From assembly GCA_900469445.1 (NCBI GenBank), contig UBXM01000006.1, positions 186,001-250,000 of the forward strand: a stretch of 64,000 nucleotides of DNA, read 5' to 3'. The position numbers were made by a program, and so were the translations under genes. The stretch comes from Hyphomicrobiales bacterium (GTDB lineage: Bacteria; Pseudomonadota; Alphaproteobacteria; Rhizobiales; Rhizobiaceae). Under the pieces are notes generated by a model. That model saw only the letters and a list, made by a program, of their open reading frames with translations. It was not told the DNA's origin and made no database searches. Below are positions 25,457-28,470 of this stretch, piece by piece; position 1 is the stretch's first letter; each line of letters begins with the position of its first letter.

Positions 25457-25861
25457 ATGGCCGATAACCTGTCGCTTGCCGAACACCCCGAACATATTGT
25501 TCCCTCACTCCGATTGCACCTCAATTCCCTTGATGTCGAAACCATGCTGCGTTTCTATCATCCTGACGCCGTTATCATCGATGCAGCTGGCAACGTGCAC
25601 AGGGGACCTGAGGCAATCGGCGTCGAGTTGGACACTTACTTTAGACTTGGCCTCCAGATGTCTATTACACAGAGGCACTTATTCGTGACAACCGACACTG
25701 CGCTTCTCATCCTCGACTGGTCATATATCGGGACTGCGCGGAACGGTGCGCAAATCAACATGGTTGCAACGGCGACAGACATTGCGCGACGCGGGGATGA
25801 CGGCTTCTGGCGCTATCTTATCGACAATCCGTTCGGTGCCCAACTTCGGGAGCCGATTTGA
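25457..25861 (+). CDS. SnoaL/NTF2-like domain protein
   Basis: A protein of 134 residues with the cone-shaped NTF2-like fold: an N-terminal helix (LRLHLNSLDVETMLRFYHPDAVIIDAAGNVHRGPEAIGVELDTYF) and C-terminal strands (TALLILDWSYIG...ATDIARRGDDGFWRYLIDNPFG). The pattern resembles YybH-like ketosteroid isomerase relatives, with no assignable reaction. AGGAG directly abuts ATG 25451, so ATG 25457 is the better spaced start. The stop overlaps the ATG of the ada fragment (TGATG), so the two were an operon. Confidence 0.75.
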   Translation: MADNLSLAEHPEHIVPSLRLHLNSLDVETMLRFYHPDAVIIDAAGNVHRGPEAIGVELDTYFRLGLQMSITQRHLFVTTDTALLILDWSYIGTARNGAQINMVATATDIARRGDDGFWRYLIDNPFGAQLREPI

Positions 25862-25945
25862 TGGTGGATCCGTCGATCTACATGGAGAATTCGGCAGACA
25901 TACCTGGCGCTCCATGGCGGGGCGTCCTCACCACTGGAATCTATT
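25861..25945 (+). pseudogene. ada: 5' fragment of interrupted ada
   Basis: From ATG 25861 the frame gives 20 poorly conserved residues and then GVLTTGIY, the sequence immediately before the methyl-acceptor Cys in Ada proteins (GIFCRPSC in E. coli). The frame is then cut by the inserted element after the first base of the Cys codon. Joining 25945 to 27470 restores GVLTTGIYCRLNCGSRRP in frame. The N terminus is shorter than in E. coli Ada, so the original start is uncertain. Confidence 0.75.
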
Positions 25946-25970
25946 GGATACCCGGATTGAAATGTGGGAT
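25946..25970 (+). repeat. Left terminal inverted repeat
   Basis: Begins GGATACCC and continues with GGATTGAAATGTGGGAT. Pairs with the right repeat at 21 of 25 positions. Confidence 0.85.
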
Positions 25971-26055
25971 TGGTAGACAAATAGGAATTCTGTCGGCGTT
26001 TGACACCATCTGAATTCTCGGTGTCTCATAGATACATAGGCCCGACAATGTTTCC

Positions 26056-27456
26056 TTGCAGACTATTTCATTTCCATATGCTTGTTCCGATGAAGATCGA
26101 GAATTCCTGAGAAACGTACGGCGCGTTTACTCCGCTGCTGTGCGGACGGCGTATGCGCAGGCGTCGCCGAATGGCATTCCTCTGCGACAAAAAGAATTGC
26201 GCGATCTCGTCAAAGGGCGGTTTGCAGGTGGGATCGTCGACGCTTGGGTTCTCCACTGTGCCACCCTTGAAGGACTGGGTCTGCGCAAACTCAATCCGGA
26301 TGGAGACATACTTTTCGGCTCGCGTAAGGAGTTTGTCCGTCGGTCGAAAGGACTGATCACAAACGCAGAATGGAAAGAGCGGCGACTGGGGCCATTCTGT
26401 TCGAGGGGGGACGCCACACAACTCGGAAACAGGCACTTCCGTCTATCGTCCGATGGGCGAACTTGCATTTTCCAATTGTACGGGCGGAAGATTACACTGG
26501 CGTTGCCCGAGATGTTCGGCAATGCAGGCAGGGTTCTGCGGGAAGCAGCGGCCCTCGCGGCAGCAAAGAAGATCAATCTGACCTTTAGGATCGACAGCCA
26601 GAAGCTCCACGTCACGATCGACCCGCAGGATCTGCCCAAACACCCGGAGCGACGTTCGCCCGTGGCTGCAGTACGAGGTCGCGCCCTTGGCATCGATCTG
26701 AACCCTGAGTTCGTCGGTCTATCGGTCGTGTCGAACACCGTTGACCCATCCAAACTTTCGGAAACGACTTTGCTGGACCATAACCTTGTGCAGGTCGCTA
26801 AAGGTGGCACGCTCCCTGCGGAACTTGTTCGTGAGACGCTGGCCGCGATCTGCGATCGCGCCATTGGCATGTGTCGCAAATGGGGTGCGAACCTCATCGT
26901 GTTCGAGAAAGGCTTGGGCAAGCTGCGCAGCGGCGGCCGCAACCGCTCTCTCAACCGTCTGCTGAACTTTTGGACACGCTCGTTGCTGATCAACATGATG
27001 AAGCGCAAGGCTGGCCTCGCGGATATCACAGTTGTCGAGGTTTGGGGTGGATACTCGTCCACTATAGGTAATTTGGCGTTTGAGGCACCTGATGCGTGCG
27101 CCTCCGCCGCAGAGATTGGCAGACGAGGCTTGGCCTTGTCTGCCAAAAGAAAGGATGTCCTTCCAGAGTTCGAGGAAGGGTGGTTGTCAGGCCGATGGAA
27201 GGATCAGACGCTGCCCGTTGAATTCGGATCTTGGAAGGATCTTCATCAGGCAATTAAAACGGCGAAAATTGGCTACCGCCGTCCGCATCCGACACCGTCG
27301 GATCCTGATACCGTCTGTGGACGGTACGCGGTGCGTCGTCTGAAACATCGTCATCGGCCAGGTCTCGTTTACCTGGCTCGTGACCGTGTCTCGGACGGTG
27401 CGAGTAAACGGTTATGTGCTGGGAGCGATTTTAGTGATCCCACATTTAAATCCTGA
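26056..27456 (+). CDS. TnpB-like RuvC nuclease without zinc ribbon
   Basis: A 466-residue protein related to transposon TnpB and Cas12 nucleases, predicted to cut DNA guided by an RNA made from its own 3' region. RuvC motifs: ALGIDLNPEFVGLSVV (Asp214), LIVFEKGLG (Glu284) and EAPDACASAAEIGRRGLAL (Asp346), so all three catalytic acids are present. The four-Cys zinc finger normally between RuvC II and III is absent; instead there is VEVWGGYSSTIGNLAF, as in the TnpB-related subgroup with YxSxIG. The N terminus (FPYACSDEDREFLRNVRRVYSAAVRTAYA) is TnpB-like. Start is TTG 26056. The stop lies inside the right inverted repeat. The last 60 residues are basic and overlap a hairpin array. Confidence 0.85.
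   Translation: MQTISFPYACSDEDREFLRNVRRVYSAAVRTAYAQASPNGIPLRQKELRDLVKGRFAGGIVDAWVLHCATLEGLGLRKLNPDGDILFGSRKEFVRRSKGLITNAEWKERRLGPFCSRGDATQLGNRHFRLSSDGRTCIFQLYGRKITLALPEMFGNAGRVLREAAALAAAKKINLTFRIDSQKLHVTIDPQDLPKHPERRSPVAAVRGRALGIDLNPEFVGLSVVSNTVDPSKLSETTLLDHNLVQVAKGGTLPAELVRETLAAICDRAIGMCRKWGANLIVFEKGLGKLRSGGRNRSLNRLLNFWTRSLLINMMKRKAGLADITVVEVWGGYSSTIGNLAFEAPDACASAAEIGRRGLALSAKRKDVLPEFEEGWLSGRWKDQTLPVEFGSWKDLHQAIKTAKIGYRRPHPTPSDPDTVCGRYAVRRLKHRHRPGLVYLARDRVSDGASKRLCAGSDFSDPTFKS
27259..27404 (+). ncRNA. Candidate omega (guide) RNA scaffold
   Basis: Four successive stem-loops in the 3' end of the TnpB-like gene. ACGGCG/CGCCGT (27259-27264 with 27277-27282); TACCGTC/GACGGTA with a 4-base loop (27309-27315 with 27320-27326), enclosed by CACCG/CGGTG (27293-27297 with 27329-27333); GCCAGGT/ACCTGGC (27357-27363 with 27371-27377); and CTCG..ACCGT/ACGGT.CGAG (27377-27387 with 27395-27404). 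TnpB omega RNAs overlap the 3' end of the gene in this way. A guide would follow after 27404 inside the element, or after the right end at 27461. Confidence 0.7.
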
Positions 27457-27461
27457 TAGCC
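27437..27461 (-). repeat. Right terminal inverted repeat
   Basis: On the minus strand begins GGCTATCA and continues with GGATTTAAATGTGGGAT. It includes the stop codon region of the TnpB-like gene. Confidence 0.85.
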
Positions 27462-27469
27462 AATCTATT

Positions 27470-28470
27470 GCCGCCTGAACTGCGGTTCACGCAGGCCATC
27501 CGATAAAAACATTCGCTACTTTCATAGTTCCGACCAGGCTGAGGAAGCTGGCTTCAGGCCTTGTAAGGGCTGCAAGCCAAACGAAGGTTCACATGAAGAT
27601 CGAAACAAGGACGCGATTGCAGAAGCCTGCAGGCTTATTGAGAACTCAATGCTTGCCGTCTCGGTTTCGGCTTTGGCGCATTCCCTGGGAATGAGTGAGG
27701 GGCATTTCCATCGAACGTTTCGTAAGTACACGGGGCTGACGCCTCGGGCTTACGCGGAAGGAAAACGTGCGGCTGACCTTCGAGGTAAGCTGGTCAAAGG
27801 CAAGTCTGTCACTGAAACCCTGTACGACGCGGGTTTCGGGTCGAGTGGTAGGTTTTACGCTGTCACGAACAAAGCGCTCGGAATGACTCCGACGCATTTC
27901 GTGCAGGGAGGTGTGCACGAAACCCTCTATTTCGCAGTCGGAGAGACCACTCTAGGCTCGATCCTAATCGCATCGAGTCAGAAGGGAGTCGCGGCTATCC
28001 TGCTCGGAGATGATCCCGATAATTTACTTGTCGACCTGCAGATCCGATTTCCGAACGCGGATCTCATCGGAGGCGATGCCGAGTTCGAGAGCACTGTGGC
28101 GCTTGTTGTCGGATTGGTTGAAAGCCCTCAGAACGCATCTGACCTGCCACTGGATATTAGGGGAACCGTATTCCAGCGGCGTGTATGGCACGCCCTCCGC
28201 GCCGTGCCTGCAGGCAAAACGATCTCCTATGACGAACTTGCGAAGCAAATTGGGCATCCAAGAGCGATCTCGGCTGTTGCGAGCGCTTGCGCAAGTAACC
28301 CACTCGCCGTCGCGATCCCATGCCATCGCGTCGTGAAAAGCGATGGAAGGTTCTTCGGATATACCTGGGGTCTAGAACGGAAGCAGGCTTTACTGGATCG
28401 CGAAAGCAGTCAGGTTACCCAGGGGGCTGAAGGCGGAGCAACAATGTCGCCCCGCCAGGACCAGCACTAG
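27470..28470 (+). pseudogene. ada: 3' part of interrupted ada (AraC HTH and methyltransferase)
   Basis: Starting in the split Cys codon, the frame reads CRLNCGSRRPSDKNIRYF...AEEAGFRPCKGCKP, the rest of the Ada zinc domain with its other three cysteines. Then comes an AraC-type helix-turn-helix (SALAHSLGMSEGHFHRTFRKYTGLTPRAYAEGKR) and the O6-methylguanine methyltransferase domain with active-site IPCHRVVKSDGRFFGYTWG. The joined gene would encode about 361 residues, close to E. coli Ada (354). An internal ATG at 27649 could still give an AraC-methyltransferase protein of 273 residues, so repair of O6-methylguanine may survive while sensing of phosphotriesters is lost. Confidence 0.85.

Follow-up and report, generated by a model that had tools for sequence, protein, structure and literature searches.

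Structure of the element and its insertion site

In a 64,000-nucleotide stretch of a Rhizobiaceae genome (Hyphomicrobiales bacterium, assembly GCA_900469445.1, contig UBXM01000006.1, positions 186,001 to 250,000; hereafter the window, whose own coordinates are used throughout), the gene ada is split exactly by a 1,516-bp unit (25946–27461) that has 25-bp inverted ends and encodes a TnpB-like protein. The 5' part of ada (25861–25945, + strand like all features here unless stated; delimited by rejoining of the flanks and by empty-site alignment) ends with the left copy of a perfect 8-bp target duplication, AATCTATT (25938–25945). The right copy (27462–27469) is predicted to provide the first bases of an RNA scaffold or guide, should the RNA described below have that role, and is followed by the 3' part of ada (27470–28470). 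Between the two copies lie the left inverted repeat (25946–25970), which is of ISL3 type by the evidence given below, a short non-coding leader (25971–26055), the tnpB-like gene (26056–27456), and the right inverted repeat (27437–27461, − strand), inside which the stop codon of the gene falls. The inverted arms are 82% complementary over 33 nt when the flanking repeat is counted in, and their core, GGATTnAAATGTGGGAT, occurs across the 6.3-Mb genome only at the two ends of the unit, even with up to 2 mismatches allowed. The gene starts with TTG, fills the unit, and encodes a protein of 466 residues that is found once in the genome.

A first-pass annotation had described this locus as a TnpB-like nuclease that is the sole gene of an element with 25-bp terminal inverted repeats (TIRs) and a perfect 8-bp direct repeat, and had stated that removing the element restores ada. 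Both kinds of repeat are present and the unit holds only the TnpB-like open reading frame (ORF), and when the ada flanks are joined with one copy of AATCTATT they form a single open Ada frame, the N-terminal 176 residues of which match Ada_Zn_binding (PF02805, E 8.3e-21). Natural uninserted loci were also found. Among the matches listed, 7 of the 15 plasmid records (18 matched) align to the two ada flanks as two neighbouring pieces; six are from Agrobacterium and one is from Rhizobium, and they span 1,523–1,533 bp less than the query, where the unit plus one duplication amounts to 1,524 bp. In two of these seven records (L215 and L216) the junction itself could be aligned, at 61–62% overall identity, with no gap within 30 columns.

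The TnpB-like protein

The catalytic RuvC residues D214, E284, and D346 are invariant among 38 sequences of the protein and its relatives, and its predicted fold is that of TnpB and Cas12f, including both the N-terminal part and the RuvC domain. A sequence search of the Protein Data Bank returned four weak Cas12 matches (E ≥ 0.31). From the predicted fold and the conserved residues we infer that the protein is a nuclease.

As to where such a protein may have come from, the nearest relatives outside the alphaproteobacterial group, in viral and phage searches, are about 27% identical over 87–88% of the length; they include the proteins of loci L026 and L027 and of ISCaje4 of Campylobacter phage CP220, and they have in common with the window protein the motifs GIDLNP and IGN..RRG and lysine-rich C-terminal motifs. 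A resolvase gene lies directly upstream in two of the four viral loci (L026 and L027; PF00239, E 1.8e-19), a short resolvase-like ORF is present in CP220, and no resolvase was seen in the other two viral loci, L025 and L028. Six cyanobacterial TnpB-like loci (L019–L024) are 21–24% identical and have GIDLNP and an IARRG motif, and a simple motif scan showed no recombinase upstream of them. These relationships suggest that the protein descends from IS607-type elements.

Additional copies with similar boundaries

Relatives occur in Rhizobium, Bradyrhizobium, Methylobacterium, and Acetobacter. Among 297 sampled genomes from the family to which the window belongs, the window genome was the only one with a relative. 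When repeat-like ends were paired by script in the retrieved loci, 16 tnpB copies with both ends were obtained, all from alphaproteobacteria: that of the window, seven from a single plasmid of A. persici, and eight from elsewhere (L005 and L014–L018 stand outside this table, as their ends were not paired). The architecture of the unit is thus beyond chance, since it recurs at other sites and in other species. Exact 8-bp duplications flank 12 of the 16 copies (the window's, L004, L006, L007, L009, L011, L029, L032, L033, L034, L035, and L100); that of L010 is 7 bp long, the duplication is imperfect in L008 and L012, with a single mismatch in 7 and in 8 positions, respectively, and L013, which is counted among the 16, has neither a duplication nor a GAA at −8/−9. 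The copies L035 and L100 are internally deleted. In the copies read, the unit holds no gene other than tnpB. Of 14 copies, 9 have the tnpB stop codon within or at the right repeat, and in L006, L008, L009, L010, and L034 the gene stops before it. The end repeats are of one type that varies with the clade, reading GGCTATYCGGATTTnnnTGTGGA in rhizobia, GGCTATCCTGCATAACGGGTTGATG in Acetobacter, and GGCTATCGGGCAGCTTGGGGTGA in Methylobacterium. The search for further copies that the first-pass annotation had proposed therefore yielded units with the same kind of boundaries, and the prospect it had raised, that relatives might prove to be ordinary IS605-type elements, came to nothing, such elements accounting for 0 of the 16 paired copies.

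The A. persici plasmid (NZ_CP014688.1, locus L004) has its seven paired units at different sites, together with 13 matches to the right end, and carries no PF01610 protein.

ISL3-type ends and the search for a transposase

When 394 genomes of the family were searched for the rhizobial end, allowing up to 2 mismatches, it was found at 29 places in 20 genomes, against 4 places for a reversed control pattern, and formed four inverted pairs in three genomes. One of these pairs, in a rhizobial genome (L146), differs from the rhizobial pattern by 0–1 mismatch on both sides, is flanked by the 8-bp duplication GAATAGTA, and encloses a protein of 448 residues that matches the ISL3 transposase domain (PF01610, DDE_Tnp_ISL3, E 5.6e-53) as well as the ISL3 zinc ribbon and the ISL3 helix-turn-helix (HTH) domain. 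The annotation had pointed to full-length relatives with a DDE transposase as a further check, and L146 is such a relative, with the ends and the 8-bp duplication in common. Other rhizobial units with the same ends lack a recognised transposase, namely a 1,056-bp unit (L147:1001–2056) with the duplication GATTTTTC and a 1,101-bp unit present in two copies (L148:1001–2101 and L149) with a 7-bp repeat; they contain small HTH or unknown ORFs, one of which, in L147, ends in the repeat.

The same type of end is found more widely. In B. badius (L211, 1799–6257) it surrounds an ISL3 transposase and three more genes, with no exact duplication; in E. faecium an ISL3 transposase gene has one such end nearby, the other end not being located; and a Pseudoalteromonas ISL3 gene has related ends. 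Transposase-less examples are a 1,107-bp unit of Bradyrhizobium (L209:3501–4607), with a Phd-type antitoxin gene and an unknown 207-residue protein, and a 339-bp unit of an Aneurinibacillus plasmid (L208:3501–3839), with the duplication AAAATATT. Taken together, L146 and the other units with these ends indicate that the window unit is, by its sequence, a transposase-less unit with ISL3-type ends.

Among the ISL3 copies of other genomes that carry tnpB units, L105 and L154 (both in genome G305) have an exact 8-bp duplication and ends, GGCTCTCCCGC..., of similar type that do not match; L152, L153, L155, and L158 have inverted pairs without duplication; and L151, L156, and L157 show nothing convincing at their ends. 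With up to 3 mismatches the Acetobacter end was matched in 51 of 249 Acetobacteraceae genomes, many of these matches being plausibly due to chance, and three ISL3 queries found no ISL3 transposase in ten of the matched stretches; a plasmid search with the same end did not find one either. Relatives of the L146 transposase at E ≤ 1e-40 were present in 6 of the 394 genomes, being L146 itself and five at 27–34% identity. Across 397 genomes of the order, the end pattern with 1 mismatch gave one match in each of 2 genomes and no pair.

Two side observations concern these ends. In Acetobacteraceae, units with ISL3-type ends and no transposase (L191:3913–4597, also L192 and L193) carry a BrnT-type toxin (PF04365, E 1.8e-18) and an HTH protein. 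Also, the end repeat is entered by the ISL3 transposase gene of L146 (1003–2349), by an ORF of L147, and by several tnpB genes, and because these genes run into it, the final residues that they encode (such as STPKSE, PTSKSE, and STRKSG) come from in-frame reading of the repeat.

A predicted RNA overlapping the 3' end of tnpB

TnpB guide RNAs overlap the 3' end of tnpB. A published account assigns the non-coding RNA of TnpB elements to the right end (PMC10711439). The window family has two signals in this region. Synonymous conservation was measured in 29 pairs of copies below 55% protein identity, drawn from ten copies and hence not independent. Over codons 1–372 the synonymous codon identity stays close to expectation (ratios 0.87–1.23); it rises to ratios of 1.74 at codons 373–400 and 1.91 at codons 401–420 (window 27172–27315, the predicted core of a guide-RNA scaffold), and returns to 1.16–1.22 past codon 420; the peak was reached by 0 of 20,000 random column sets. 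The synonymous substitution rate (dS) falls from 0.28–1.32 over codons 1–370 to 0.17–0.26 over the next 60 in four of the five pairs for which it was computed, and rises from 0.086 to 0.206 in the fifth (L004–L029).

The second signal is the folding of the sense strand, which in the last 420 nt of the unit (27042–27461, the predicted scaffold region) is far better than that of shuffled sequences. Against dinucleotide shuffles, the last two 220-nt segments have mean z values of −3.7 and −2.8 in ten copies, compared with −0.1 to −1.3 for the five segments upstream; single copies range from −7.0 to −1.5 in the last segment, and a second tool gave −3.3 for the window copy. An alignment of 14 copies yields short helices in which 94% of cells are paired, versus 34–50% when the helices are slid, with 7 doubly changed cells versus 2.0 in shuffles (0/500), the structure having been derived from the same alignment on which it was tested. 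Of 10 copies, 5 had more than 1.5 expected pairs between the right repeat and the start of the scaffold and the other 5 had at most 0.52, the block having been set blindly in the 7 copies where no start motif was found. Rfam gave one sub-threshold match (18.4 bits versus 93). The conservation of codons 373–420 and the folding of the last 420 nt together support an overlapping RNA, and we predict a structured RNA at the 3' end of tnpB that may be used as a guide.

A GAA next to the insertion

Read from left to right end, 15 of the 16 copies have a GAA whose first base is 8 or 9 bp to the left of the unit (25937–25939 in the window, 9 bp left), against 3 of 16 at the mirrored position and a background of 3.6%; in 6 of the 8 Acetobacter copies it is part of TGAAA. 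This one-sided motif resembles a target-adjacent motif and is predicted to act as one or to overlap one, or else to be a target of the transposase. In IS605 the motif of the nuclease is identical to the site that the transposase prefers (PMC11870625). Where the duplication is imperfect or 7 bp long (the three copies L008, L010, and L012), the GAA is kept in the left copy of the duplication and not in the right one.

Interpretation

We suggest that the element is most plausibly a single-gene unit with ISL3-type ends that encodes a protein of predicted TnpB fold, contains the guide RNA for it in the 3' end of its own gene, and was moved in trans by an ISL3-family DDE transposase, an account that we consider probable. 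On this account an ISL3-type transposase would cut and paste the unit, and RNA transcribed across the 3' end of tnpB, through the right repeat and on into the flank, would provide a scaffold and a guide matching the insertion site. The nuclease would then cut copies of that site that are free of the element, be they the excised donor, a sister chromosome, or a plasmid, and repair from the occupied copy would return the element. Such retention, together with plasmid drive, is described for the TnpB of IS605 (PMC11870625).

Several observations weigh against this account. With respect to the protein, the NCBIfam guided_TnpB model scores 15.5 bits versus a cut-off of 100, and the label 'TnpB-like' is used here because that curated cut-off is missed. 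C-terminal zinc-finger cysteines are typical of TnpB, and in the 38 sequences none are conserved, there being no invariant or nearly invariant cysteine past residue 68. With respect to the RNA, L004 and L009 show a weak folding signal (z −1.5 and −1.8, respectively), and the number of pairs changed on both sides is not exceptional (3 versus 1.7 in shuffles, 84/500). With respect to the motif, L146 and L147, which lack tnpB, also have a GAA on the side of the left-type end, so that the GAA need not be a nuclease motif and may belong to the transposase, and the nuclease alone is unsupported as the cause of its orientation; in L148 and L209, also without tnpB, it is not on that side, the ends having been typed for this purpose with a small score matrix, which in leave-one-out gets several of the tnpB ends wrong. 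With respect to the transposase, PF01610 is absent from 6 of the 10 tnpB genomes searched and from both Acetobacter plasmids, where the search was confined to the plasmids themselves, and the sole ISL3 copy of the window genome (L150, 3898–5594, G000:C25), with ends GGGATCTTCCTCAATTTCTGTGAT and no duplication, was rejected as the helper by its ends. The reading of the first-pass annotation, a RuvC nuclease riding in an apparently non-autonomous unit of DDE style, is supported by the ISL3-type ends and the lack of a transposase gene, with the caveat that no helper with matching ends was found in the window genome. With no matching ISL3 there and PF01610 often absent elsewhere, the helper is one that we infer; it may have been active in a previous host, or have been lost.

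In an unlikely but serious alternative, the nuclease would be nothing more than cargo in a cassette with ISL3 ends, moving with ISL3 help, serving for example in defence or regulation and having no part in homing. Toxin–antitoxin-like genes travel without a transposase in units with the same ends (the Phd antitoxin of L209 and the BrnT-like toxin of L191), and the orientation of the GAA is seen without tnpB in L146 and L147; against it stand a structured and synonymously conserved 3' end that reaches the right repeat as in TnpB elements, and tnpB being the sole gene of the unit in the copies read. Very unlikely, in our view, is movement by a DDE transposase of another family that makes 8-bp duplications, the likeness to ISL3 being superficial. 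The lack of a matching ISL3 helper in the window genome, and of any found for the Acetobacter-type ends, could be read in this way, but the nearly perfect ends of L146 on both sides with their 8-bp duplication, the ISL3 element of B. badius, and the ISL3 gene of Pseudoalteromonas with its related ends all speak for ISL3 itself.

The TnpB-like protein might also be the transposase of an autonomous, RuvC-based element whose ends resemble those of ISL3 by chance, as could be argued from the genomes, Acetobacter plasmids among them, that harbour units and lack PF01610, and from the differences in end repeats between clades. We regard this as highly improbable, given that an ISL3 transposase, like several units without tnpB, lies between matching ends with an 8-bp duplication, and that the predicted fold is that of TnpB and Cas12f nucleases, for which we know of no strand transfer. 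Finally, although some source names read 'IS605 OrfB family transposase', hardly any probability attaches to an ordinary IS605- or IS607-type element with coincidental repeats, in view of the perfect duplication, the empty sites, the independent copies with the same ends, and the absence of the core repeat from the rest of the genome.

Relation to known systems

Returning to the single-gene, ISL3-ended TnpB unit moved in trans, we consider it likely that a bacterial TnpB-like nuclease has changed its carrier. The protein has very low sequence similarity to the TnpB of IS200/IS605 (e.g., ISDra2) and to Cas12f. Unlike IS200/IS605, the unit has no Y1 partner and has 25-bp TIRs and an 8-bp duplication; unlike IS607, it has a duplication and no recombinase ORF, whereas a resolvase gene adjoins the IS607-like tnpB relatives of L026 and L027. 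With ISL3 insertion sequences it shares the end type (GGSTATNCGGATT...) and the 8-bp duplication, and the ISL3-ended L146 and L147 agree with the tnpB units in the side, relative to end type, on which the GAA lies; the difference is that ISL3 carries a PF01610 transposase and the unit only the TnpB-like ORF. Mobile insertion cassettes consist of cargo between the ends of an insertion sequence, without a transposase. Their inverted repeats, duplication, cargo gene, and lack of a transposase are all found in the window unit, which is set apart by a cargo that is a predicted RNA-guided nuclease and by the failure to find a helper with the same ends in its genome.

The closest parallel in arrangement is eukaryotic. 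Fanzor1 and Fanzor2* reside on eukaryotic transposons with TIRs and target-site duplications, and both the TIR and the duplication are predicted to form part of the guide-RNA scaffold (PMC10711439). The window unit is likewise a TnpB-type nuclease on a transposon with such ends, but the Fanzor carriers are eukaryotic, whereas this family is alphaproteobacterial and uses ISL3-type ends. It is conceivable, at somewhat less than even chances, that a lineage of RNA-guided nucleases of IS607 type switched to an ISL3 transposon and uses the end of that transposon for its homing, with a scaffold running through the inverted repeat and the one-sided GAA of the insertion target doubling as the target-adjacent motif, in an independent bacterial replay of the Fanzor partner switch. 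The bacterial TnpB partners described in PMC10711439 and PMC9956272 are Y1 or serine recombinases. Listings of the open literature gave no published case in which a TnpB of bacteria sits on DDE or ISL3 ends, in keeping with the first-pass annotation, which knew of no precedent in bacteria.

If our account is true, a cut-and-paste transposon can be equipped with RNA-guided retention, and DDE-type ends would place an 8-bp duplication between the repeat and the flank that the scaffold or the guide has to absorb. The family would give bacteria a small model of the change of partner that has been inferred for Fanzors. It is also directly testable, being a compact lineage of nucleases in which the RNA region can be recognised and a candidate motif is at hand. 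The occurrence of toxin–antitoxin-like genes and of the nuclease as alternative cargo between ends of one type further suggests that retention-promoting genes recur in transposase-less ISL3 cassettes.

Apart from these features, the locus contains a 17-nt direct repeat (88%), possibly due to chance, with one copy in the start region of tnpB (26084–26100) and the other in ada (27587–27603).
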